The position numbers were made by a program, and so were the translations under genes. DNA of 35,284 nucleotides from Singulisphaera sp. GP187 (GTDB lineage: Bacteria; Planctomycetota; Phycisphaerae; Phycisphaerales; SM1A02): contig CAMBOV010000019.1 of NCBI GenBank assembly GCA_945869475.1, positions 1 to 35,284 of the forward strand. The letters are read 5' to 3'. Within the stretch, counting starts at the first letter, position 1. Every line of letters begins with the position of its first letter. The notes under the pieces were generated by a model, which made no database searches, was not told where the DNA came from, and saw only the letters and a list, made by a program, of their open reading frames with translations. Below are positions 11,868-25,985 of the stretch, piece after piece.

Positions 11868-14012
11868 TCAACTCCCGCGAATCGAAAAGGCTGGCAGGTA
11901 CGCCTTGCGCGTGTACTGCGCAACCATCCGGTGCGAATTGAACTCTGCAGGAACGGTCGCAGCGCTGTGGAGCGCGCGTGCGATCCATCCGTGGGGAAGT
12001 CCCCTCTCATCGCGCTCGTAAAACTGCGGGATGATCGACTCTTCGAGCAGCGCGTAGACGCTTGCGGCATCTGCACCGTCGCGCGCGCTTTGATCTTGTA
12101 ATTTAGCGTCTTGCACCGCGGTCACCGTGCCGATGCTCCATCCATTGATGCCATCGGTTGCTTCTGGCCACCATCCATCAAGAATCGAGAGGTTGAGTCC
12201 ACCGTGCAACGGCGGTTTCATTCCACTTGTGCCGCTCGCCTCGTATGGTCGAATAGGTGTGTTGAGCCAGACATCGCATCCTGAAGTGAGCATGCGTCCC
12301 ACGTGCATGTCGTACTCCTCGACGAATGCAACGCGGCCGACGAAGCGAGCATCGCGACTCATCTCAAAGATTTTTTGTGCGAATGCCTGACCATCCACAT
12401 CGCGGGGATGCGCCTTGCCGGCGAAAATCAACTGCACCGGTCGATTGACACTCGAGAGAATCGCAGCGAGCCGATCTGCGTCGTGAAAGATGAGTGGCGC
12501 GCGCTTGTAGGTCGCGAAGCGTCGCGCGAAGCCGATGGTGAGCGCGTCGTCGGTGAGCAATGAATCGGTCGCAGCGACTTCGGACTGTCCCTCGCCGCGG
12601 CGTTTGCACTGCATCGCGAGTCGATCGCGTACGAAATGCACGAGGCGACTTCGCAGGCGCGCGCGAAGGTGCCAGAATTCTCGTTCATCACACCCTTCGG
12701 CGTGGCGCCATCCAGTGGCCTTTGGAGCCTGCTTCGAGAGGCGAAGTCCACACGTGCGGCGCCAGAATCTCTCAGCGTCTGGATCGATCCACGTCTTGAC
12801 GTGAACGCCGTTGGTGATCGACCCGATGGGAACCTTGTTCGCGGCGACGCCGTAAAACTCTTTCCACATCTCGCGACTCACTTCGCCGTGCAACTGCGAG
12901 ACGCCGTTGACGCGCTGGGCGAGGCGCAGTGCGAGCACAGTCATGCAGAAGGTTTCTTTCGGGTCACCTGGTTTGATTCGTCCGAGGTCTGCGAGTTCAT
13001 CGCTCGAGAGCCCCGCGCGAAGTGCGAGGGTTGCGAGTTCTTCAGCGACCATCTTTGGGTCGTAGCGATCGTGCCCTGCGGGCACCGGCGTGTGTGTTGT
13101 GAAGACCGTGGCACGGCGCACAACATCGAATGCTTCTTGGATCGGCCGACCCGACGAATGCAATTCGACGGCGCGCTGCAGCGCTGCGAACGCCGCGTGA
13201 CCTTCGTTGAGATGCAAGACCGTGACTTTTTCTCCCACAGCCTTCAGCGCCATCATGCCGCCGACCCCGAGCAAAACTTGTTGGCGAAGACGCAGATGTG
13301 GTTCGCCCTTGTAGAGACCCTCGGTGAGTCTGCGATCCTCAGGAGCATTGGCTTTGAGATCGGTGTCGAGCAGATAGAGCGGCACGCGCCCAACCCACAT
13401 TCGCATCACACGCGCGGTGACGATGCGCGCGCCAATTGGGCAGCCGATCGTGACGCGTGTGTCTTCGATGCCCCATCGCGCAAAGTCGTAGTCGGGATAA
13501 AGCACGACGGTTGATCCATCGCGGGCAATCTGCTGAATGTAGTAGCCATGGCGATAGGCGAGACCGACCGCGACGAGTGGGATGCCCAAGTCTGAGGCAC
13601 TCTTGAGGTGGTCACCCGCCAAGATTCCCAGACCGCCCGCGTACTGTTGGATCGACTCGTGCAATCCGTACTCGCTGCAGAAGTAGCCGATGCGCAATCC
13701 GGCCAACGCGACCGAAGCACCGCGCTGAAACCACGCGCGCTCACCGAGATAGGCGGCGCGCGCGGCCAATCCGTCGAAGACCCGCTTCACGAAGAGGGGA
13801 TCGCACGCGAGTGCCGCGATGCGCGCAGGTGACGTTCGTTCGAGTGTCCCCAGCGGTGAATGATTTGTTGCGCGCCACTCGCTTGGGTCGAGCGTTTGAA
13901 AGACTGACCATCCCTCCTCGTTCCACGACCACCACAGATTCGATGCGAGGTCGCGGAGGTGGGTGATGAGTTCGTCAACACGAATCGATGGAACGCTCTG
14001 GGCTCGTGACAT
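11868..14012 (-). CDS. glgP: Alpha-glucan (glycogen/maltodextrin) phosphorylase, GT35 short type
   Basis: 714 residues from the ATG at 14012 (MSRAQSVPSIR). The N-terminal segment LASNLWWSWNEEGWSVFQTL is the DUF3417 region found in the short, archaeal/actinobacterial type of phosphorylase. IGYFCSEYGLHESIQQYAGG and LGILAGDHLKSASDLGIPLV are the glucan-binding signatures. FTTHTPVPAGHDRY and GSITNGVHVKTW follow. The PLP lysine lies in EASGTSGMKPPLHGG (Lys about 599), and LDGWWPEATDGINGW is typical of this type. It releases glucose 1-phosphate from alpha-1,4-glucans in the cytoplasm. It is the third gene of the minus-strand run after the GH13 enzyme and 4-alpha-glucanotransferase, 35 bp after the latter. 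Together they form a maltodextrin or glycogen degradation pathway. No good Shine-Dalgarno site precedes it. Confidence 0.93.
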   Translation of the reverse strand: MSRAQSVPSIRVDELITHLRDLASNLWWSWNEEGWSVFQTLDPSEWRATNHSPLGTLERTSPARIAALACDPLFVKRVFDGLAARAAYLGERAWFQRGASVALAGLRIGYFCSEYGLHESIQQYAGGLGILAGDHLKSASDLGIPLVAVGLAYRHGYYIQQIARDGSTVVLYPDYDFARWGIEDTRVTIGCPIGARIVTARVMRMWVGRVPLYLLDTDLKANAPEDRRLTEGLYKGEPHLRLRQQVLLGVGGMMALKAVGEKVTVLHLNEGHAAFAALQRAVELHSSGRPIQEAFDVVRRATVFTTHTPVPAGHDRYDPKMVAEELATLALRAGLSSDELADLGRIKPGDPKETFCMTVLALRLAQRVNGVSQLHGEVSREMWKEFYGVAANKVPIGSITNGVHVKTWIDPDAERFWRRTCGLRLSKQAPKATGWRHAEGCDEREFWHLRARLRSRLVHFVRDRLAMQCKRRGEGQSEVAATDSLLTDDALTIGFARRFATYKRAPLIFHDADRLAAILSSVNRPVQLIFAGKAHPRDVDGQAFAQKIFEMSRDARFVGRVAFVEEYDMHVGRMLTSGCDVWLNTPIRPYEASGTSGMKPPLHGGLNLSILDGWWPEATDGINGWSIGTVTAVQDAKLQDQSARDGADAASVYALLEESIIPQFYERDERGLPHGWIARALHSAATVPAEFNSHRMVAQYTRKAYLPAFSIRGS

Positions 14013-14047
14013 GAGTCGAGCATTTCTACCAAATTCACGAGTGTTTG

Positions 14048-15517
14048 CTATCGAATGCGACCGGTGATCGCTGCGAGTCTCTGCACGCTCTTGGCGCATT
14101 TCGTGCAGTGTGTGCGCCAATCGCTCGGAAGGCGCCACCGCCATTGCCCCTGCCCGCGCCCAGGCAGATTCATCCGCGCGCTGCGGTCGAGCCCGAGCAC
14201 ATCTTGCAGCGCGACGACGGCAAGTTGCGCTCGCGAGGCGAACGCAAGTCGCATCATTGCCTCGTGGGGAGCGCGTGCCGAGTCGGCGCCACAGTACGCA
14301 ACAAATCGTGTGCGCTCTGATGGCGAGAGAGCTTGAAACCACCCGCGCGTCGTGTCGTTGTCATGCGTGCCGGGGTAGACAACCGATTGCACCTCATGGC
14401 GGTGAAGCAACTCGCCCGAGTTGTCGCATCCAAAGGCGTGATGCAACACTTTCATTCCTGGAAGATCGAATCGCGTGCGAAGCGCGACAACCTCATGCGT
14501 CACCGCGCCGAGATCTTCGGCGATCAACGCAAGCGGGCCGAGCTTCTTTCGCGCAGCTGCGAGAAGTTCTTCTCCAGCTTGTGGCTTCCATGCACCAGTG
14601 CGCGCGGTCTTTGCGCCGCTGGGAATCTCGTAAGCGTGATGGAATCCAACAAAGTGATCGATGCGTACCCCATGGAAGCGGCGCAGCGATGCGGCGATGC
14701 GCTGCGTCCACCAGCGAAATCCATCGGCACGGTGGGCGGACCATCGGTAGTGCGGATGCCCCCAGAGTTGGCCATCCTTTGAAAAACAATCTGGTGGGAC
14801 ACCCGTCAGCACCTCAGGACGCCCCAACCTGTCGAGACGAAAGAGTTCTGGATGCTCGGCAACATCGGCACTCTCGAGCGAGACGAAGATCGGTAAATCT
14901 CCGAGCAGTTTCACGTTGTGTGCAATCGCGTGGTCGCGCAGTGTGGTGAACTGCGCGTCGAAGGCGAACTGAAGAAAGGCGTGGTAGCCAAGAGCGTCGT
15001 TTAGGTAGGTGCGCCATCCTGCGAGCCAATACTTCTCACGCTGCGCGAATGCTGCGTAACGCGCACTTTCGAAGCCCCCATCGGCGCGAAACGATTCGAA
15101 GGCGCGAAGAAATGCGGGCTCTTTCGCCCGACGTGCCGCGTCATAGTTTGTCTTCGCGCTCGAGCTTCGCGACCCAATTCGACTGGTCATTGTTCCGCGC
15201 GAGAAACGGGCGGCAGCTCGCGCCGACTCTCGCACGTCGCGCGTGCTCAGCAGTCCTTCGTCGCGCAATCGCTCGAGTGAGAGAAAGAGCGGCTCGCCCG
15301 CGAAACTCGAGGTGCTCGCGTACGGAGAGTCGCCCGGACCAATGGGGCCAACAGGCAACATCTGCCACCACGAGAGTCCAGCAGCGGCGCACCACTGCAC
15401 GAATTCAAAGGCGCAGTCACCGAGGTCGCCGATCGCGCATGGGCCAGCGAGACTCGAGAGATGCGCCAGAACACCTGCGCTTCGATGAGCCATCACAGGA
15501 TTGCGCGCGAGACTCAT
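14048..15517 (-). CDS. malQ: 4-alpha-glucanotransferase (amylomaltase), GH77
   Basis: 489 residues, the usual length for short MalQ (about 500). The N-terminal RSAGVLAHLSSLAGPCAIGD and WWQMLPVGPIGPGDSPYAS are diagnostic of GH77, as is LGDLPIFVSLESADVAEHPE. The catalytic triad is visible: nucleophile Asp287 in VRIDHFVGF, acid/base Glu334 in LIAEDLG, and Asp386 in GTHDNDT. NLPGRGQGQWRWRL closes the domain. It disproportionates maltodextrins in the cytoplasm, releasing glucose and longer chains that the downstream phosphorylase can use. The start ATG overlaps the stop of the upstream GH13 gene as ATGA (15514-15517), so translation is probably coupled. The region between about residues 105 and 125 is Arg/Ser rich and poorly conserved. 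Confidence 0.94.
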   Translation of the reverse strand: MSLARNPVMAHRSAGVLAHLSSLAGPCAIGDLGDCAFEFVQWCAAAGLSWWQMLPVGPIGPGDSPYASTSSFAGEPLFLSLERLRDEGLLSTRDVRESARAAARFSRGTMTSRIGSRSSSAKTNYDAARRAKEPAFLRAFESFRADGGFESARYAAFAQREKYWLAGWRTYLNDALGYHAFLQFAFDAQFTTLRDHAIAHNVKLLGDLPIFVSLESADVAEHPELFRLDRLGRPEVLTGVPPDCFSKDGQLWGHPHYRWSAHRADGFRWWTQRIAASLRRFHGVRIDHFVGFHHAYEIPSGAKTARTGAWKPQAGEELLAAARKKLGPLALIAEDLGAVTHEVVALRTRFDLPGMKVLHHAFGCDNSGELLHRHEVQSVVYPGTHDNDTTRGWFQALSPSERTRFVAYCGADSARAPHEAMMRLAFASRAQLAVVALQDVLGLDRSARMNLPGRGQGQWRWRLPSDWRTHCTKCAKSVQRLAAITGRIR

Positions 15518-17967
15518 TGCTCGAGCGCCCAGACCCGTCCTGAAAGTGCTGGCACTGAAATCTTTGGAAATGCTTCATCGGCAACGGCCGCCCCTTCGCC
15601 ACCGAAGATCGTGCGCCACGGGCCGGTGCGCGTCGAACTGATCGACTTCGAGAGATCGAGTTGCACCTCGTGCGGCGATGCGTTGAGCGCCACCAATAAC
15701 TTCTCGCTGCCGAGCGCGCGCTCGAAGATCCAGACATCGTGCGCATCGTCGCAGAGGATTGTCTCGAACGATCCACCGCGCAAAGCGGGGTGGGCATTGC
15801 GCAGCGCGATCACTCGCTTGTACCACTCGAGATGAGCACCATCGACGGTGTTTTCAAGCGGCTTCTCGTAGGGCTCGAGATCTTTCCAGAGCATCGGCTT
15901 GCGATTGGTTGGATCGTCGGCCCCCCACATTCCAACTTCATCGCCGTAGTACACCATCGGAGCGCCGACGTAGACCATCTGCGCCAACACGACTAAACGC
16001 GCGCGCGCGTACTCGTCAGCCGATGGCTTTCCACCTTTATACGTCTGGCTTTCTTGCTCGCGGTTGCCCTTGTCATAGTCCGAATCTGGATGGCGCAACT
16101 TCGAGACGAGGCGATCGGTGTCGTGACTGTCAACGAGATTCTGCAAGACGTAGGTCGCTTGCGCGGGATAGGCGCGGCGCAACTCAGCAAGTCTTCGGTC
16201 GAGTTCGCTCGTGGTGATCTTGCGATCCTTGTCGCGAATCCAGTGCAAGAGTGACTCAGCGAACGGATAGTTCATCACCGCGTCAAACGAACGACCATCG
16301 AGCCACGAATCCGCGCGCTTCCAAATCTCGCCAACGATGTAGGCATCGGGATTGATCGACTTCACAAGTGCGCGCCACTCAAACCAAAACGGCATTGCGA
16401 CTTCATTTGGAACATCGAGGCGCCATCCATCAATGCCATCGGATGGATCGCCGTCGCCGTTTGGATCCATCCAACGACGAGTGACATTGAAGATGTGCTG
16501 CTTGACCTCGTCGCTGTAGAACCCTTGATCGGTCTTGCGAAAGACGGGCAGCTCGGTGAAGCCCGCCCAACCGTCATACTCAAAGGGTTCGAACGATCGA
16601 ACACTAAACCAATCGCGATACACACTCGCTTGACCACGCGCTTGCAGGTCGGCAAAGGCTGGATGCGCGGTGCCGACGTGATTGAAGACCCCATCGAGAA
16701 CGACCCGAATTCCGAGTTGTTTTGCCGCACGAATCACGTCAAGAAAGAGCAGGTCGGTGGGAGTCCACGTCCAGGTCTTTGGATCGCGCAGGTCTTCGAC
16801 GACCTCGGCCTTGGCGTAGTCGCCGCGCGTGCCGAAGTGCTCGTCGACGTGTATGAAACTCGTCGCGTTGTACTTGTGGTGGGTCGTCGCTTGAAAGATT
16901 GGATTGAGATAGAGCGCGTTGACACCGAGCTCTTTGAGATAGGGCAAGCGGCTTCGCAACCCCGCGAGGTCTCCACCGTAGTGTCGCGAGAAGACGTACC
17001 AGTTAAAAAAGGTTTGCCCACTCGCGGTCTCCCATGCACTTGGGGTGTACCACTCGCTCGTCCAGGGTCGACAGGGATCGGGATTGTTCGCGGCGTCACC
17101 GTCACAAAATCGTTCGAGCATGATCTGATACCAGATGGCATCCTTCGCCCACGCTGGCGTCGTGAAGAGTGCGTCGGTCGCCGTGTCGAGTGAATAGATG
17201 CGTGAATCGCTCAATCGTGTTGCTCCATCTGAGAAGAGGAAGGTATAGGCAAGCGCACTCGTCGGCGGCGTGATGGCGAGTTGCCACCACGAAAAGATTC
17301 CGTCACTGCCACCATCGCACATCGCAACGCGCGGCTTTCCCTTCGCGGCAAACTCGACCGACTCGATATCGCCGCGCAGAGTGCGAATGCGTACGAGCAG
17401 TCGTCCATCGGGCAGTCGCTGCACGAATGCCGCGAGTGCGGGATCGTGCGAGAGAGCCCCGCCCTCAATTTTTCCATCGCCGAGTCGGGCGCGAATGGAG
17501 TCAAGATTCGCCTCGCCGCCGAGTCGAAGAACGCTGTTGCTGCCTCCATTGCCATCGTCGCTCTTTCGTTCGTTGCGCGGATCGCTCAACCACTGCGTGG
17601 CGTCGACGACGAACTTGTAGAAGCGTTCGCCTGCAGCGAGCTGCACCGACACCCGCCAGACCCCATCGTCACCTCGGCTCATCGGTGTCGCAGTCGTGCT
17701 CCACGAATTGAAGTCGCCTGCGAGGGTCACACTCTTCGCTGGCCGCACAGGTTGAAACGAGAATTCGCAGGCGAAGGCGCCACCGGCGAGTGAGCGAGCC
17801 TCGACACTCGAAGGGGTCGTGGCTTGCGTCAGCGAGAGAGTCGATGTGACTTTCGCTTCGCGGGGCGGCCACTGCGCTTGTGGCTGCGACTGCACGTCGG
17901 ACGAGCAGAGCAGTGCAGCAAGTGCTGCGACGATCAGCGCCGATTCGAGTGAGTTTCGTGGTGACAT
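15514..17967 (-). CDS. Exported GH13 alpha-amylase-family enzyme with N-terminal CBM48/CBM20-like domain
   Basis: 817 residues from the ATG at 17967, with a signal peptide (SALIVAALAALLCSSDVQS). Residues about 50-130 form a starch-binding immunoglobulin-like domain (VTLAGDFNSWSTTATPMSRG, then FYKFVVDATQWLSDP). A second beta domain precedes the catalytic barrel. The barrel has AIWYQIMLERFCDGDAANNP, VVLDGVFNHVG, the nucleophile Asp518 in DGWRLDVPNE, Glu547 in IVGEIW and Asp616 in VDSHDTDR, so it should be active. The pattern resembles the neopullulanase/cyclomaltodextrinase group, here secreted. It probably cuts starch, glycogen or pullulan outside the cytoplasm to give maltodextrins for the adjacent importer. 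It is the first gene of the coupled operon with malQ and glgP, and is divergent from the importer with 71 bp between the starts. Confidence 0.88.
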   Translation of the reverse strand: MSPRNSLESALIVAALAALLCSSDVQSQPQAQWPPREAKVTSTLSLTQATTPSSVEARSLAGGAFACEFSFQPVRPAKSVTLAGDFNSWSTTATPMSRGDDGVWRVSVQLAAGERFYKFVVDATQWLSDPRNERKSDDGNGGSNSVLRLGGEANLDSIRARLGDGKIEGGALSHDPALAAFVQRLPDGRLLVRIRTLRGDIESVEFAAKGKPRVAMCDGGSDGIFSWWQLAITPPTSALAYTFLFSDGATRLSDSRIYSLDTATDALFTTPAWAKDAIWYQIMLERFCDGDAANNPDPCRPWTSEWYTPSAWETASGQTFFNWYVFSRHYGGDLAGLRSRLPYLKELGVNALYLNPIFQATTHHKYNATSFIHVDEHFGTRGDYAKAEVVEDLRDPKTWTWTPTDLLFLDVIRAAKQLGIRVVLDGVFNHVGTAHPAFADLQARGQASVYRDWFSVRSFEPFEYDGWAGFTELPVFRKTDQGFYSDEVKQHIFNVTRRWMDPNGDGDPSDGIDGWRLDVPNEVAMPFWFEWRALVKSINPDAYIVGEIWKRADSWLDGRSFDAVMNYPFAESLLHWIRDKDRKITTSELDRRLAELRRAYPAQATYVLQNLVDSHDTDRLVSKLRHPDSDYDKGNREQESQTYKGGKPSADEYARARLVVLAQMVYVGAPMVYYGDEVGMWGADDPTNRKPMLWKDLEPYEKPLENTVDGAHLEWYKRVIALRNAHPALRGGSFETILCDDAHDVWIFERALGSEKLLVALNASPHEVQLDLSKSISSTRTGPWRTIFGGEGAAVADEAFPKISVPALSGRVWALEQ

Positions 17968-18038
17968 GCGGCTCAAGAGTAGAACGCTTCACCAATCGCT
18001 GCGCGCGACTTGCACGCCGAAACTATCCTCGCACGAGC

Positions 18039-20423
18039 ATGATTCGACTCACCGCACAGTGGCTTCGCAGACTGCTGTGGATGGCGACCGGCGCAATCGT
18101 GCTCTGGGCCTTCGCAACCGTCGCGGTGCGTGAACTGCGCGCACTGCTCTCGCGTGATACCCGTACTGAACTCGTCGTCATGCACTGGTCGGGCGAGGGT
18201 GGGCAGGAAGAAGATCAGATTGTCGAGGATGCTCTGCGCACTTTCGAGCGCGACCATCCGACGCTTCGAGTGCGACGCATCAATCCCGGCGATGCAGGCA
18301 GTTTCTACACAAAGCTGCAGACGATGATGGCGTCGGGCGATCCGCCAGATGTCTTTTATGTTGGTTCGGAGCGCATTCCCGCGTTCGTTTCGCTCGGATT
18401 GCTCGCGCCACTCGATGACGCTCTCGCAGAGGATGCGCGCGCGAAGGTCGCCGATCAGATTGAACTCGACGGCTTCTATCGCGCGACCGTCGAAGCCTTT
18501 CAGTTCGATGGCAATGCAACGGGCCGTGGACCTCTCTACGGAATTCCAAAGGACTTCACGACCGTTGGCTTCTACTGGAACAAAGATCTCTTCGCGCGCG
18601 CTGGACTCGCCCCGCCGAGCGCCGACTGGACTTGGGATGAGTTCATCGCCGACGCACGCGCGATTGGAAAGTTGCCCGGTTGCACGGGCGCAGAATTCGT
18701 CACCTGGCCCGCAATGGTGCGCGCCTACTTGATGAGTGAGGGAGTCGATGTGAAGGGAGAGTCGTTCGACGACTTGCGCACATCCGACCCACGGGTCGTC
18801 GCAGCGCTCGATCGACTTCGCAGTTGGCGACACGATGAGAGTGGCGCACTCACGAGTGGTAAAAGCAAGATCGCAACGGGATCGAGCGTCTTTCTTGGAG
18901 GGAAGGTCGGACTCGCCGGTCCTTTTGGACGGTGGGTCGTACCGAGTTACCGCAAGATCCCCTCCGCTGCGGATGGTGGATTTTCTTGGGATTTCGCAGC
19001 GCTTCCTCGCGGCAGTGCGCAGAGCAACATCGTGTTGACTGTGTCCTGGTCGATCTCACGTCAGAGCAAACACCCCCGCGAAGCATGGCAACTCGTGCGG
19101 TTTCTCTCAGGCGAAAAGAATCAGCGCGCGCTCGCGACGCTCGGGTTGGCGATTCCAACGATTCGAGCTGCGGCGCAGAGCACGGCGTTTGATGATCCGG
19201 CGCAAGAACCTGCCAATGACCGCGCGTTTCTTGATGCGGCAGAGCGGGCGCGCGTCGTCGATTGGCCGAGCGATCCACAATTCGAATCACTTCTTGGATC
19301 GCGCCTCGATCAAGCGCTCAAGACCGGCGACCTTTCACTCACAGAGGCGATCGCAAACTTCGAGCGCGACTGGAAGGCGCAGCGCGAGAGTCCGCTTCAG
19401 AATGGGGCGACGTCAGCGATGCCGTGGACCCCACTCGCGTGGATCGGCGTCGCGCTCGTCGTCGTCGTGGCGTCACTCGCTTTCGTGCGACTGCGACGAG
19501 GCAACCTCAGCCTCGCCCATCGCCGCGAAGAGCGCATTGGCTTTCTGCTCGCCTCACCGTGGATCGTCGGCTTCGCTCTCTTCATGCTCTTTCCAATCGC
19601 GATGAGTCTCGCCCTTGCATTCGCGCGGTGGAAGGGTGTTTCGCCCCTGAATGAGGCTGATTTTGTTGGGATCGCAAACTTCGAGCAGTTGCTCACCCTC
19701 GATCACCGTTTTCGCGCGAGTCTCTCGGTCACTGCGTACTACGCGCTGCTCGCCGTGCCTTTCGGACAGGTGCTCGCCCTGCTCGCAGCGCTCTTGATGA
19801 ATGCGAAGGTGCGCGGCATCCACCTCTTTCGTGCTGCGTGGTATCTGCCGAGCGTGCTCGCAGGTGTTGGCGTTGCGGTGCTCTGGCGGTGGATCTTCGA
19901 CTCGGACGGCGGCTTGCTCAACAGCGCACTTGCACCGCTGCTCGCCCCCATCGGACTCGCCCCGCCGGAATGGTTTGGTCGCGACGCGAGCCTCTTCGGA
20001 GCGCCGGCCTTTGCACTGATGAGCCTCTGGTTCATGGGTGGAACAATGATCGTCTTTCTCGCGGGATTGCAGCAGATTCCGGTTGAACTCTATGAAGCGT
20101 CGGCGATTGATGGCGCGAGCAAGCGTCGCCAATTCTGGTCGGTGACGCTGCCGATGCTCTCGCCGATCATCCTCTTCAATGTGATCATGGCCATCATCGC
20201 GAGCTTTCAAGTCTTCACGCAAGCGTTCGTCATGACCGGCGGTGAACCGGGCGACCTCACGCGCTTCTATGTGCTCTATCTCTACAACCAGGGGTTTGAG
20301 TATTACGAAATGGGATACGCCAGCGCGATGGCGTGGCTCTTGCTGCTCATCGTGCTTTCGCTCACCGTCGTGGTGATGCGCACGAGCAATCGCTGGGTGC
20401 ACACCGATGGAGCAAAGGCGTGA
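18039..20423 (+). CDS. Fusion of sugar-binding protein (SBP_bac_1) and MalF/UgpA-type ABC permease
   Basis: 794 residues from the ATG at 18039. Residues 10-30 form an N-terminal membrane helix. Residues about 42-455 are a full cluster-B carbohydrate-binding protein: LVVMHWSGEGGQEEDQIVED, ALRTFERDHPTLRVRRINPG, TKLQTMMASGDPPDVFYVG, LYGIPKDFTTVGFYWNKDLF and AWQLVRFLSGEKNQRA are all typical. A second helix at about 462-484 leads into a complete six-helix CUT1 permease (about 493-794). Its EAA loop is ELYEASAIDGASKRRQFWSV, and its first helix contains LLASPWIVGFALFMLFPIAM. With both anchors, the binding domain sits outside the cytoplasmic membrane. There is no stop or frameshift between the two parts. 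Separate genes are the rule for CUT1 importers. The coupled MalG-type permease follows, and the flanking amylase, malQ and glgP genes point to maltodextrin. Confidence 0.92.
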   Translation: MIRLTAQWLRRLLWMATGAIVLWAFATVAVRELRALLSRDTRTELVVMHWSGEGGQEEDQIVEDALRTFERDHPTLRVRRINPGDAGSFYTKLQTMMASGDPPDVFYVGSERIPAFVSLGLLAPLDDALAEDARAKVADQIELDGFYRATVEAFQFDGNATGRGPLYGIPKDFTTVGFYWNKDLFARAGLAPPSADWTWDEFIADARAIGKLPGCTGAEFVTWPAMVRAYLMSEGVDVKGESFDDLRTSDPRVVAALDRLRSWRHDESGALTSGKSKIATGSSVFLGGKVGLAGPFGRWVVPSYRKIPSAADGGFSWDFAALPRGSAQSNIVLTVSWSISRQSKHPREAWQLVRFLSGEKNQRALATLGLAIPTIRAAAQSTAFDDPAQEPANDRAFLDAAERARVVDWPSDPQFESLLGSRLDQALKTGDLSLTEAIANFERDWKAQRESPLQNGATSAMPWTPLAWIGVALVVVVASLAFVRLRRGNLSLAHRREERIGFLLASPWIVGFALFMLFPIAMSLALAFARWKGVSPLNEADFVGIANFEQLLTLDHRFRASLSVTAYYALLAVPFGQVLALLAALLMNAKVRGIHLFRAAWYLPSVLAGVGVAVLWRWIFDSDGGLLNSALAPLLAPIGLAPPEWFGRDASLFGAPAFALMSLWFMGGTMIVFLAGLQQIPVELYEASAIDGASKRRQFWSVTLPMLSPIILFNVIMAIIASFQVFTQAFVMTGGEPGDLTRFYVLYLYNQGFEYYEMGYASAMAWLLLLIVLSLTVVVMRTSNRWVHTDGAKA

Positions 20424-21283
20424 ACCGCGCGACGTCGCGAGTTGTTCAGTACACGCTGCTCGTGGGCGGTGCGCTCATCATGCTCGCTCCACTCTGGTGG
20501 ATGTTCGTCGTAAGCCTCCAAACTCCTGAACGCGCAGCCGCTGCCGTCGGCGGCACAGGTGGCGTTGCGCTCTGGCCCGCGTCGCCGCAGTGGATGAACT
20601 ATCCCCAAGCACTGCGCGAAATGGGCTCGGTGCAGTGGCAGGGTTTTCTCAACGCCTTTGCGAACTCGATCGTCGTGACAACGCTTGTTGTCATCGGCAC
20701 GGTGCTCTCGAGCAGTCTCGTCGGATTCGCCTTCGCACGCATTCGATTTCGTGGAAGCCGCGCGCTCTTCATCATCATGCTCGGCACGATGATGCTGCCT
20801 GGGCAAGTCACGCTCATTCCGCTCTTCATTCTCTTTCGACACCTCGGCTGGATCGATTCGCTTCTTCCGCTCATCGTGCCGGCGTTTTTCGGAAACGCGT
20901 TCTTCATCTTCATGTACCGACAGTTCATCGCTCAGATTCCTGAGAGTCTCGTTGAAGCCGCGAAGGTTGATGGCCACTCGCTCGTGGCAATCTGGTGGAA
21001 GATCATCCTGCCGCTCTGCAAGCCGGTGACGGCGATTTGCGCCGTCTTTACATTCATCTACGTCTGGAATGATTTCATGGGACCGCTCGTCTACCTGCAC
21101 AGCGACGAGCAAGCGACACTCGCCGTCGCGCTGAACTCATTTCGCAATCAGTACGGCGGGCTCGAAGATGTGCACCTCTTGATGGCGGCGAGTTTGGTCA
21201 CGATGGTTCCATGCATCGTGCTCTTCGTTGCTGCACAGCGTCAGTTCATTGAAGGACTCGCTCGCGGCGGCGTGAAGGGCTAG
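20420..21283 (+). CDS. MalG/UgpE-type ABC sugar permease
   Basis: 287 residues starting at a GTG that overlaps the stop of the fusion gene (GTGA, 20420-20423), a sign of translational coupling. Six membrane segments are visible. The first contains LLVGGALIMLAPLWWMFVVS, the usual MalG opening. The EAA motif lies in ESLVEAAKVDGHSLVAIWWK, which docks onto the ATPase. The segment MMLPGQVTLIPLFILFRHLG is also typical of this subfamily. It should form a heterodimer with the permease half of the upstream fusion. The ATPase gene is not adjacent but lies 1.5 kb downstream at 22745. Confidence 0.93.
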   Translation: MNRATSRVVQYTLLVGGALIMLAPLWWMFVVSLQTPERAAAAVGGTGGVALWPASPQWMNYPQALREMGSVQWQGFLNAFANSIVVTTLVVIGTVLSSSLVGFAFARIRFRGSRALFIIMLGTMMLPGQVTLIPLFILFRHLGWIDSLLPLIVPAFFGNAFFIFMYRQFIAQIPESLVEAAKVDGHSLVAIWWKIILPLCKPVTAICAVFTFIYVWNDFMGPLVYLHSDEQATLAVALNSFRNQYGGLEDVHLLMAASLVTMVPCIVLFVAAQRQFIEGLARGGVKG

Positions 21284-21314: not shown

Positions 21315-22697
21315 TCACATCGCTGGATTGTTGTAGTTGTTGCGCAACCACGCGATGAGTTGCTTCGCGTTGTCGCCCTTGACCGTCAGCGCTGGAGCTT
21401 GCGCCATCAAGGCATCCACCTCGCTCTGCAACGCGACGACTTCGGCTTTAAACTCTGGATTGATCGTCATCATCGGGTTCTTGGCGAGGGTCGCGGCGAT
21501 CGCTCGAGCTTGGCCGGTCGCGGCACTTGCCTCTTCAAAGATTCGTACGACCTGCTGCCATGCTTCGATCGAGAAGTCGACGTTCTTGCGCCAGGCACTC
21601 GTGCCCACGCGGGTGAACTCCCAGCTGCTCCCCGTCGATGTGGTCGACGTTGTCTGGGTCCAATTGCGCGAATAGGTGCGTCGATACTTCTGCTGGCGAG
21701 GATCGGTCGCCCGCGCATTCGCCTCGGCCTCGATGAGGCCACCCACGAGTGCACGTGCGTTCTTGACGGCGGTGAATCCCGTTTTTAAACCGAGGGAGAG
21801 TTGGTCGAACTCCTGTGATCGTCGCTCTTGAATCTGCGCGAGAATCTTCTCGGCGACGTCGGGTTGTGCGATCCACTTTTCGACGCCGAGCACCTTGCCC
21901 ACCGCGTCGAGCGATCCCGTGCACGAGAGTGCGAGACCGGAGGCGACGAGTTGCGATCCCGTCATGCCCGGCATCGCGTCTTTCCCGCTGGCAAGTTGCA
22001 CCGAAGGAATTCCTGCAGGCGCAGTCACCGCTGCCTCTGGGCACCCATCACTCCCCCGCCAAAGAAAAAGATCTGTTGCAGGATCGAGCAACGCGTTCAC
22101 GAAGAACCTCATGTATGCGCGATCCGTCGAACGCGAAATGATCGTCTCGAAACAGGCGCCAACTTCGGCCGCGATCCCCGAGTTTGGAACATCGGACGCT
22201 GGAGTCCACTCGAGAACGCTGACGTCATTGTTCGGATTGAGTACCACCACGTAGTCGCACACCATCGGCAAGATCGCGCCCATTCCAGAGCACGATCCTA
22301 GAACGCAGATCACTGGCATCCGTCTGCGCACTTGCACGATCTGCTCGGCGAGCGCGAGCGTTGCAGCGTGCTCTCCGCCCGTCAAATTGAAGTGGATCAC
22401 AAGTGCATTCACGCCAGCCGTCGCGGGAGTGCGCTTGAGAAACTCGGCAAGCGCATCACTCGCCGTTGAGTCGCCGATCGAACCATTCAGTGGCAAGGTC
22501 GCGTATCGAAGAGTGTGGGCGAGGCGGCGGTCCTTTGAACACTTCGATGTTGGAGGTACGGCATCGATTGGCCCATCGCCCTGTGCGACCTCTTGTGTCG
22601 CAGCCGTTGCTGGACCGCGCACAGGAACGAGCGCAGGCGCAGCGGGAGATTGAGCGGTGATGGACAGCAGCGCGACGAGCAGAGGGGTCGTAAACAT
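21315..22697 (-). CDS. Exported protein with a ClpP/SppA/NfeD-like fold (putative serine protease-like)
   Basis: About 460 residues, with a signal peptide ([17 protein letters not shown]) from the ATG at 22697; an ATG at 22718 would add seven residues. Residues about 97-155 resemble the core of the ClpP/crotonase fold as seen in NfeD and SppA proteases. [20 protein letters not shown] parallels the LDTPGG oxyanion loop. [20 protein letters not shown] parallels the segment carrying the serine nucleophile (here Ser137, Ser-Gly-Met-Gly). The rest of the catalytic set cannot be assigned. The C-terminal 120 residues are helical. It lies on the opposite strand between the importer permeases and the ATPase gene, with 47 bp to the latter's start. 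Whether it takes part in glucan use is unknown. Confidence 0.55.
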
Positions 22698-22744
22698 GTT
22701 CTCACTGTTGTACCTCATCGTCGATGAGCAGTAGGCTCTCTGGG

Positions 22745-23956
22745 ATGGCAACAGTGCATTTGCGCGCAGTTTCAAAGAGCTACGCATCGGGCGCATCGGG
22801 CACGACGAGGGCAGTCGAGTCGGTCGACCTCGCGATCGCCGATGGCGAATTCGTCGTGCTGGTTGGGCCATCGGGGTGCGGCAAGAGCACAACGCTTCGG
22901 ATGATTGCGGGGCTCGAAGATGTTTCGGGGGGCACGATCTCAATTGGAGAGTGCGTCGTCAACGACGTTGCACCCAAAGATCGCGACATCGCGATGGTCT
23001 TTCAGAATTACGCGCTCTATCCCCACCTCAACGTGCGACAGAACCTCTCGTTCGGTCTCGAACGCCGGCGCGCATTCAAGAGTTGCTGGCGCGGGCTCTT
23101 CGATTCTGCCTACCGATCGAAGCGCGCGGGCGAACGCGCCGCGATCACGGCACGTGTCGAGGCGGCTGCGCGCACGCTCGGCATCGAACAACTGCTTCAC
23201 CGGCAACCCCGCGAACTTTCCGGTGGACAGCGTCAACGCGTGGCCGTCGGACGGGCATTGGTGCGCGATCCTGCTGTCTTTCTGTTCGATGAGCCGCTCT
23301 CGAATCTCGACGCACTCTTGCGCACAGAGATGCGCACCGAACTTCGAATCCTTCACCGCAGATTGCGTGCGACGATGGTCTACGTCACACACGACCAGGA
23401 AGAGGCGATGAGCCTTGCCGACCGCATCGTTGTGATGAAGGATGGCGTCGTGCAACAAGTGGGATCGCCCGCTGAGATTTATGGGCGGCCATCCAATCGA
23501 TTTGTTGCCGGCTTCATCGGTACGCCACCGATGAACATGATCGACGGCACGATCACGCTCGACGCCGATAGCACGCTCACCTTTCGATCGGCGTGCTGCA
23601 CGCTCACGCTTCCTCCTGGGCGTTTCGACCTCGACGGACTCTCGCGAGGCCACGAGCGCCCCGTCACGCTTGGCATTCGTCCCGAGCGGTTGTCTCCCGC
23701 GGTGGGTGAATCGAACGTGTCAGCGCATGCGAATGTCACTGGACGGGTCGTCGCCGTCGAACGCTACGGCGCCTCGGCTGATGTCGTACTGTCTGCGAGT
23801 GGCATTCGCCTCATCGCACGCGCGTCGCAAGAGTGCACTACGCAAATTCGCGAAGGCGAGAATGCAACGATGACGGTTGACGTCAATGCGGCACATCTCT
23901 TCGATTCACACACTGGATGCGCTCTCGCGCGCGCGATCAGGGCGCCCAACCGCTGA
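22745..23956 (+). CDS. ABC sugar importer ATPase, MalK/UgpC/MsmX type
   Basis: 403 residues from the ATG at 22745; an in-frame ATG at 22724 is also possible. Walker A is GPSGCGKST (41-49), the Q-loop is in [14 protein letters not shown], the signature is LSGGQRQR (158-165), Walker B is [12 protein letters not shown] (178-189) and the switch histidine is in YVTHDQEEA (216). The C-terminal TOBE/OB regulatory domain (about 245-400) includes [17 protein letters not shown] and [10 protein letters not shown], typical of the CUT1 family. Compared with MalK, the helical subdomain carries about 20 extra residues after FGLE ([20 protein letters not shown]). It should energise the fusion permease and MalG-type permease encoded upstream. 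Its 3' end overlaps the convergent GH13 gene by 20 bp. Confidence 0.93.
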
Positions 23957-25985
23957 GCATGCTCGCGAGATCGCTTCCGCCAACTGTGCCATCGCCATCG
24001 ATGTCAGCGACGCTGCCGGATGTGCCCCACGCTGAAAGCAGAATCGAGAGGTCAGCTCCGTTCACAGCCCCGTCGTGGTTAAGATCTTGCGGCGCATAGA
24101 CAGGTGGTGGATCGCCCTGCGAGAACATCGTCACCGAATAGGCACCGACTGAGATGAGCGCACTTTGCGCAAGACCATCCCACGCAGTGTCATTGGTCGA
24201 CGTCGTGAGACACAGCGTGTTTGCATAGTCGCTGCTGTAGCCCGTCCAGTCGCTGTTAAATCGGCACTTCCAGAGACCCGATCGGGGCATCCCGATGCGG
24301 TAATTGAGGCGCGGAGTCGCAGAAAAATTCGCGATCACGATCGTGTCATCGAGCTCGCCGCCATTCTGCCAGCGGTGATAGGCGATGAGTTTTTCTGTGT
24401 TGTTCACGTGAAAGACGTTGGTACTGAATCCCGAAAGCCCGCGCGTCACACCTGTGGCATTCTTGCGAAGGGCGACGAGGTCTTGATAGAGCTTGAAAAT
24501 GCCTGAGTAGGTCGTCTTGCGCGACCAGTCGAGCGCAACATCATCGCGAAACCATTCATCTTCGAGAAACTCCTGCCCTTGAAAGAGCAGCGGGATTCCA
24601 GGCGCGCTCATCACAAGTGCGGCCGCGAGCGTCGAGCGTTTGCGCGCAGACCACGAGCCTGCGTTGCCCGGAGAGATCTCTTCGGGCACGCGCTGCTTGC
24701 CATTGGCGACTTCGTCGTGGCTCTCGGAATAGATGACGCGCTGCTGCATCGATCCGTTGTAGGAAAACGCGATCGCGTCGCGCACGGAATACATGTTGCG
24801 ATCCGCATCGTTTGAAGTGATCGATGCGCTGCGAATCTGCGGATAAAAACTCGCATCCCACTGACTATCGAATCCTGCCCCGCCCGCGCCTGTGGTTTTG
24901 GTCATGTAGGGCTCGACGTCCATGTCTTCGGCGACGATGAGCTTCTGCGGCGCGACCGCGTCGACTTCGTTGTTGATCCACTGCAAGAGCGACCATCCGT
25001 CGGCAATATCTGGACCGTCTTGCCCAACGCGCCGGATGTACTTGGTGCCGTCGACGCGCAGGCCGTCCATGCGAAACTCATTGAGCCACATCATCGCGTT
25101 GTCACGAAGGTAGGTTCGAACTTCTCCTCGCCCGAAGTCTGGACGCGTGTCGCCCCACGGCGTGTAGGCGCGGGAATCGTTGTAGAAAAAAACTCCGCCA
25201 AGACCGTTCTGCGACCATCCATCAAACTGCCAGATATCCATGTCGTTGGGACCGATGTGGTTGTAGACAACATCGCAGGTCACCGCGATTGAGCGCGCGT
25301 GCGCAGCGTCGATGAACTCTTTCAGATCGTTTGGACTTCCGTAGGCACTCTCGACCGAAAAGGGATACGAACCGTTGTATCCCCACGAGCGGTCCCCTGA
25401 AAACTCACAGATCGGCATGAGCGCAATCACATTCACGCCGAGTTCGACAAGATGATCGAGGCGCGCCACACACTGGTCGAGGGTCGATGGCGGAGAGCCG
25501 CTCGTCGACGAGCCGAACGTGCCGATGTGCATCTCGTACATCACAATCTTGTCCCACGTTGGAATGGCGAATGATGTGTTCTGCCAGACGTAGGCGTTTG
25601 CGTCGTAGACCACAGAGTTGCCCACTGAGCTCACAAGGTCGCGGGCGCGCGGATCATTCTTCCAGAGCAACTGCGTCCCGCGCTTGAGATAGAACTTGTA
25701 GTGCGCCCCTGCTTGCACGAGCGGAACATCGACCGACCAATAGCCATTACCCTCGTTGAAGAGCGGGCGCGAGGTTGTGCTCCAGAAGTTGAATGATCCT
25801 GCGACCGCAACCGTGTCGGCATTTGGAGCGAAGGTTCGAAAAGTCGTGCCATTGCCCGTCGCAGAGGCGTATGGGATCGCGCCAATTCCAGGTCGCATCG
25901 AGATCTGCGCGAGAGCCGAACTCGCCGTGAGGGCGAGCGCAGCAGCGAGAGTGAGTGCGAGATGGCAGCGGGTGCGAGATTGCAT
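23937..25985 (-). CDS. Exported GH13 enzyme (CBM48 plus branching-enzyme-like barrel) with dockerin-like C-terminal tail
   Basis: 682 residues with a signal peptide ending ASSALAQ. Residues about 45-130 are a CBM48-type domain ([16 protein letters not shown], then [20 protein letters not shown]). The barrel opens with [12 protein letters not shown], the signature of the GlgB/TreZ/isoamylase side of GH13, and has [12 protein letters not shown], nucleophile Asp312 in [12 protein letters not shown], Glu353 in VAEDMD and Asp424 in ESHDEV. The enzyme therefore looks active, as a branching enzyme, amylase or debranching enzyme; the exact reaction cannot be told. The last 52 residues hold two EF-hand-like repeats ([20 protein letters not shown] and [20 protein letters not shown]) as in planctomycete secreted proteins. 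It overlaps the ATPase gene tail to tail by 20 bp. A 7-bp inverted repeat lies upstream of the start. Confidence 0.88.

Follow-up and report, generated by a model that had tools for sequence, protein, structure and literature searches.

The gene at positions 18039–20423 (forward strand) of the window, a stretch of 35,284 nucleotides from Singulisphaera sp. GP187, raises the question of whether a CUT1 importer can have its sugar receptor built into its own permease. According to the excerpted part of a review (PMC11212667), CUT1 operons typically comprise four gene products, of which the receptor is a separate one. Here one frame of 794 residues, stop-free in translation, encodes four parts in order: an anchor in the membrane, the whole of an SBP_bac_1 domain, another helix and then a permease of MalF/UgpA type. 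The earlier note had read this architecture from the letters, and the translation, the Pfam matches and a structural model agree with it. The gene, whose description draws also on NCBIfam profiles and orthologues, quite probably belongs to a CUT1-type importer, most likely for alpha-glucan oligosaccharides, with the receptor covalently joined to the MalF-type subunit.

Both halves are matched by Pfam above the curated cut-offs, SBP_bac_1 at residues 57–362 (E 3.6e-35) and BPD_transp_1 at residues 578–780 (E 6.2e-11), and every fused protein in the two sets scanned (of 23 and 28 proteins) has both domains. The N-terminal membrane helix (residues 2–37, 18042–18149, forward strand), with a hydropathy peak at residues 12–30, is a helix in the model as well; its translation has no lipobox cysteine, and it is probably uncleaved. 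It is followed by the predicted extracytoplasmic binding-protein domain (residues 41–450, 18159–19388, forward strand), which is assigned through SBP_bac_1 and a match to the structure 5f7v, by a linker (residues 451–462, 19389–19424, forward strand), delimited in an alignment of 25 fused proteins by the invariant Trp463, and by a second membrane helix (residues 463–487, 19425–19499, forward strand), evident in hydropathy and in the model, which would bring the chain back to the cytoplasm. The MalF/UgpA-type permease core (residues 492–794, 19512–20420, forward strand) has UgpA as its best NCBIfam profile (residues 497–787, E 1.6e-27) at 97 bits, short of the equivalog cut-off of 335, and is also matched by the archaeal GlcT and by MalF, all under their equivalog cut-offs. 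A simple hydropathy scan detects both tethering helices and five permease helices. The loop region at residues 683–706 (20085–20156, forward strand), in which E686, A687 and D691 are invariant in alignment A1, is what we take to be the EAA motif, the presumed docking site of the ATPase.

The start at 18039 is backed by orthologues and by an upstream hexamer, TATCCT (18024–18029, forward strand), a putative -10-like promoter element 15 bases ahead of the ATG. All 17 same-genus orthologues have such a TATNCT-like hexamer (TATGAT in one of them) 13–18 bases upstream of the ATG, and 14 of the 17 have no Shine-Dalgarno-like motif ahead of the start. The position of the hexamer and the scarcity of Shine-Dalgarno motifs suggest a leaderless or nearly leaderless message, as far as can be judged from sequence.

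A joining error at 19370–19500, about which the earlier note had been cautious, is untenable, because 17 of the 19 genomes from the genus have the same fusion in one frame (24 of the 41 genomes of that whole search). A genome was counted as fused when a single listed match had no internal stop and covered at least 600 query residues; fused relatives that match in the permease half only are omitted from such counts. Neither a stop nor a frameshift, named beforehand as fatal to the idea, was met in the relatives counted among the genus and class genomes. In two genomes of the genus (G013 and G015), neither the fused gene nor, at the same sensitivity, an unfused version was found. That two adjacent genes have been read as one through assembly or annotation is vanishingly improbable, given the stop-free match over both halves in these 17 genomes and many others and its presence in 24 named, separately assembled records. 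Such artefacts can occur: in Sinorhizobium meliloti the same receptor and MalF-type permease are encoded by two adjacent genes (HB773_22590 and HB773_22595), with genes for a further permease and an amylo-alpha-1,6-glucosidase after them; the gap between the pair is bridged by one piece of a tblastn match.

Long frames that seemed to be fusions in three genomes (one each of Cohnella, Chloroflexi and Streptomyces, with 7, 5 and 3 loci) proved unfused in 15 of 15 cases. These frames of ~730–960 amino acids are 15 of at least 17 matches listed without an internal stop; in 14 of them the receptor is encoded in a different frame or upstream of a stop, and in the fifteenth (L213) no receptor was found in frame by our own profile or by Pfam. 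Another candidate, L158 (G138), was likewise unfused on reading. One of the 15, a Chloroflexi frame of 757 amino acids (L210:2431-4701), instead joins two permease domains in a single chain, apparently those of MalF and MalG. The unfused pairs of S. meliloti, Chloroflexi, Bacillota and Actinomycetota have the same order, a receptor gene and then a MalF-type gene, but unlike the fusion they are two genes.

The structure of the fusion was predicted with AlphaFold2 from an alignment of 25 fused proteins, the window protein and those of 24 named loci (mean pLDDT 83, pTM 0.75). The model shows a helix at residues 2–37, a two-lobed domain to about residue 450, a helix at 463–487 and then the permease helices; two membrane crossings ahead of the permease would fit the usual permease topology. 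Residues 41–450 form a confident binding-protein fold. The best solved match to the receptor half is the cycloalternan receptor Lmo0181 (5f7v; Foldseek E 2.3e-23), which superposes on the range 41–450 with a Z score of 42.9 (2.6 Å over 381 residues) and disposes of the worry that the first 450 residues might lack such a fold. It is followed by receptors for beta-glucans, maltose, trehalose and other sugars. The receptor half occupies the best 50 Foldseek matches, which are thus silent on the permease half.

The attached domain might instead serve as a docking or regulatory domain while another, free receptor delivers the sugar. Additional domains on MalF would be nothing out of the ordinary, since that of E. 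coli makes contact with the receptor through a large periplasmic domain. Here, however, the domain has a complete two-lobed receptor fold and is strongly constrained, and the organism appears to have no other candidate. Its own genome contains three SBP_bac_1 matches, the fusion, a protein resembling iron receptors and one resembling PstS next to a PstC-like permease (the iron, PstS and PstC names were given by eye), and a second sugar-type binding protein was not found in this genome, which is 96.7% complete, so that a receptor gene could have been missed. Since the other two matches look iron- and phosphate-type, the fusion is, judging by sequence, probably the only CUT1 receptor of the organism, and a merely docking or regulatory role of the attached domain is very unlikely.

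The genes that follow encode the other parts expected of a CUT1 importer. A MalG/UgpE-type permease gene (20420–21283, forward strand; BPD_transp_1 E 1.2e-17, UgpE profile E 5.3e-35) starts at 20420 with a GTG overlapping the fusion's own stop codon, and its product matches UgpE, GlcU and MalG in NCBIfam, each under the equivalog cut-off. A MalK/UgpC-type ATPase with OB and TOBE domains is encoded at 22724–23956 (forward strand; ABC_tran, OB_MalK, TOBE_2) and reaches 435.8 bits with the UgpC profile, above the cut-off of 432. The gene between these two (21315–22943, reverse strand) has no Pfam match and by eye resembles ClpP/S49-like proteases; a homolog is found at the same place in loci L077 and L078. 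An SBP_bac_1 receptor, two different permease subunits and a separate single-cassette MalK/UgpC-type ATPase are thus all present, and the profiles and neighboring genes uphold the CUT1 assignment. The fusion departs from CUT1 importers in a trait that is typical and not defining, the receptor as a separate free or lipid-anchored protein; on the transport of di- or oligosaccharides itself, only the neighborhood and the fold bear.

The gene order is conserved among relatives. Within up to 10 kb on each side of the 24 best named loci, homologs of MalG were found near 23, of the window's GH13 enzyme near 21, of MalK near 19, of GH77 near 16 and of the phosphorylase near 15, these counts being lower bounds because several loci are on short contigs, and some of the matches being partial or distant. 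The MalG homolog lies downstream of the fusion in 23 of the 24 loci and the MalK homolog in 19, so the pairing of a MalF-type fusion with a separate MalG-type partner, proposed beforehand, is corroborated by profiles and by gene order alike. A nearby MalK homolog was not found in five of the 24 loci, one of which is on a contig that ends soon after MalG; in these five the ATPase may be encoded elsewhere and shared. One fused gene (L096, JAEUIR010000014.1) has no MalG, MalK or GH13 homolog within the stretch examined.

The enzymes encoded around the importer point to its substrate. A GH13 alpha-amylase with CBM48 (15514–17976, reverse strand) is divergent from the fusion, and beyond it are a GH77 4-alpha-glucanotransferase (14048–15517, reverse strand) and an alpha-glucan phosphorylase in an open frame at 11868–14342 (reverse strand), with the true start probably inside it. 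On the other side is another GH13 enzyme (23937–25985, reverse strand), which also has CBM48 and ends in a Dockerin_1-like calcium-repeat region; all four are assigned by Pfam. Because GH13, GH77 and glucan phosphorylase genes flank the fusion and are kept near many relatives, the substrate is most likely maltodextrin or related alpha-glucan oligosaccharides, as suggested by these neighbors and by the fold. It is unlikely that the tethered importer serves sugars other than alpha-glucans. The best PDB sequence match of the receptor is the arabino-oligosaccharide receptor AbnE (E 1.9e-29), the beta-glucan receptors rank high in the structure comparison, and several more distant relatives are without GH77 and the phosphorylase nearby. 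Against these stand the flanking genes, with homologs near 21, 16 and 15 of the 24 named relatives as given above, and the top structural match, Lmo0181, which was solved with cycloalternan, an alpha-glucan; several of the solved matches bind alpha-glucans.

The linker between the two halves keeps its length while its sequence drifts. The stretch of residues 450–462 is 13 residues long in 24 of the 25 aligned fused proteins and 14 in one, and Trp463 is invariant in all 25; in a wider set, the stretch 430–500 is 71 residues long in 38 of 55 fused proteins and 66–74 across all. The 17 same-genus orthologues give a median pN/pS of 0.21 for the receptor and 0.20 for the permease as opposed to 0.57 for the linker with the second helix and 0.56 for the N-terminal anchor, values usable only as a contrast because silent sites are near saturation (median pS ~0.7).

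The weaker constraint on the linker and the second helix would also be expected if the gene is fused and its product is not, that is, if a protease or signal peptidase cuts the chain, or translation starts internally, and a free receptor or permease does the work. An in-frame ATG at about codon 461 is found in all 17 same-genus orthologues, and some divergent fused relatives begin with what by eye seems a cleavable signal peptide. A cut at that N-terminal peptide, however, would leave the receptor held by the second helix. The internal start was judged weak: in the wider alignment Met occupies position ~461 in just 13 of 25 proteins, and no Shine-Dalgarno-like motif precedes the ATG in any of the 17 orthologues, the latter being a weak argument because the true start also lacks the motif in 14 of 17. 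The fixed length of the linker and the invariant Trp463 are as expected of a working tether, and a split product is quite unlikely.

The fusion is not confined to Phycisphaerae, as the earlier note had supposed it might be. Of the 298 genomes of the class, 56 have it (at an E value of 1e-60 or lower), as do 13 of 294 genomes of the phylum, eight of them outside the class, so that other planctomycete classes have it as well. Among the best 80 loci from the 84,980 named species genomes scanned, 25 are fused and 55 unfused; four of the unfused loci (L126, L142, L143 and L144) are without any receptor by our own profile. The top 24 of these 80 are all fused, 23 with planctomycete names and one labelled Bacteroidia, and the 25th fused locus is an Armatimonadota-labelled record. 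That Armatimonadota-labelled genome has six distinct fused genes alongside unfused ones, namely five with a long frame or a match in a single frame, one of these being the 25th gene, and L198, which has both Pfam domains. The locus with the Bacteroidia label (L079, JASGCG010000033.1) has a fused gene 65–66% identical to that of the window, with no other match at E 1e-20 in its genome of 2.1 Mb; it is probably a mislabelled planctomycete bin or a case of transfer.

This distribution leads to the question of one origin or several. Trees were built from 61 sequences hand-picked from 134 (58 of the 61 for the receptor, three unfused ones without receptor sequence being omitted), with MalG sequences set apart by a profile made from a single sequence. 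The permease tree requires four changes between the fused and unfused state, three of them forced by well-supported branches, and the receptor tree also four, all of them forced. Clade A, that of the window protein, has bootstrap values of 98 in the permease tree and 100 in the receptor tree. Clade C, with open frames of ~810–980 residues, has 100 in both and adjoins an unfused Paenibacillus protein in both; two clade C genes form a tandem pair in G149 (L177) and a close pair on one strand in G075 (L159). The planctomycete fusion L165 groups with unfused Chloroflexi in both trees, while the Armatimonadota fusion L122 is placed elsewhere, its position in the permease tree being weakly supported. 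A tree with extra Armatimonadota sequences, built with a simpler model and an unsettled bootstrap, requires five changes, three of them forced, and one of the added sequences joins clade C. A single origin of all sampled fusions is rejected by the AU test on the permease tree (p 0.024), while the union of clades A and C alone escapes rejection (p 0.085), the groups having been named after the first tree was seen.

Because both trees need several changes of state, the fusion probably arose more than once, insofar as sequence trees can tell. Some of the changes could be fissions, the trees themselves giving no direction, but repeated gain is favored by the spread of unfused forms over many phyla. 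A likely route is that the stop separating neighboring receptor and MalF genes was lost, since the pair in S. meliloti is two adjacent genes. A recurrent fusion would also be hard to explain if its product were split at once, which again argues for a product that stays in one piece.

In 14 loci (L167:5795-7645, L159:273-2105 and 12 others), the MalG-type partners are unusually long, with open frames of 559–640 amino acids. These sequences (alignment A3), 13 from among the partners in fused clade C together with L172, were picked for length. Between core helices one and two they contain 230–356 residues, as compared with ~50 in the MalG of the window. No Pfam family was found in the insert, all 14 proteins matching BPD_transp_1 alone; it may form a further extracytoplasmic domain.

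The systems most similar in their parts are MalEFGK2, UgpBAEC and LpqY-SugABC, which share the SBP_bac_1 receptor, two different permeases and a separate OB/TOBE ATPase, but in which the receptor is separate and not part of the MalF-type chain. The closest in linkage are GlnPQ and OpuA, whose receptor is covalent with the permease chain, as it is here at the gene level. OpuA has identical halves and a receptor of a different family, and the receptors of GlnPQ may precede the membrane domain. GlnPQ, an importer of amino-acid type, is a homodimer with two receptor domains per chain and four per complex, unlike the fusion. In the excerpted text on GlnPQ (PMC8025302), which against that order words the receptors as ‘C-terminally linked’, these glutamine receptor domains are tethered to the membrane domain, as in the fusion, the nearer one by a flexible 19-residue linker. 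In the glycine betaine importer OpuA of L. lactis, the receptor is joined through an 11-residue linker and a hydrophobic anchor, both lacking sequence conservation, as the excerpt of PMC11065425 has it; this tether closely parallels that of the fusion, with its short linker of unconserved sequence, although OpuA has two receptors per complex. RPA2039 from Rhodopseudomonas palustris is, on the partial account of it, also counted among the closest known systems.

In contrast to GlnPQ and OpuA, the fusion has a separate, unfused MalG-type partner, which speaks against a homodimer with two or more receptors, and the only receptor families found by Pfam are SBP_bac_1 and SBP_bac_8, not those of amino-acid or betaine receptors. 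Its parts are of CUT1 type, while its linkage appears to be of the GlnPQ/OpuA kind placed on a heterodimer, so that a complex would have one receptor. Searches of an open-access library brought up no publication about receptor-permease fusions in CUT1 importers, while domain databases such as InterPro may list the architecture. The phrase ‘fused to the permease’ concerns ATPases in the excerpt of PMC3899296 and is a general remark in that of PMC9045158.

In the importer proposed here, the chain would cross the membrane once, the two-lobed receptor would fold outside, and after the linker of ~13 residues the second helix would re-enter the membrane and the chain continue as the permease. The complex would combine the fusion with a single MalG-type subunit, made separately, and with two ATPases of MalK/UgpC type. 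As the MalG- and MalK/UgpC-type genes are separate, it would have exactly one tethered receptor, and the earlier note's expectation of a single receptor per importer holds at this level. Sugar released by the neighboring amylases would close the receptor, which would dock on its own MalF/MalG face; ATP hydrolysis would import the sugar, and GH77 and the phosphorylase would then degrade it. The tethered receptor would always be present and could not diffuse off.

The benefit put forward in the earlier note was a high local concentration of the receptor. A fixed 1:1 stoichiometry, or the loss of receptor exchange, would explain the fusion at least as well, because the free maltose receptor MalE of E. 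coli is already in 30–50-fold excess (excerpt of PMC9045158). The fusion would then trade receptor excess and exchange for permanent occupancy; better capture at low sugar, simpler assembly or export, or removal of a brake are all possible benefits.

For the meeting of a free receptor with its transporter, the maltose importer serves as the textbook example. In the excerpted account of Bao and Duong (PMC3328499), MalE binds MalFGK2 tightly and leaves when loaded at high sugar, a regulation suggested as possibly universal. A tethered receptor cannot leave, so the fusion tests this suggestion directly. On balance it seems somewhat the likelier course that CUT1 importers of Planctomycetota and Armatimonadota have repeatedly hard-wired one receptor to MalF, so that ligand-driven dissociation does not take place, and that in one lineage MalG has gained an extra ~230–360 residues. 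The conserved and apparently recurrent MalE-MalF-like fusion offers a natural test of whether the receptor ever needs release, and a system of constant 1:1 ratio that structural and single-molecule studies could use. It also shows that receptor tethering is not tied to homodimeric importers of the GlnPQ and OpuA kind.
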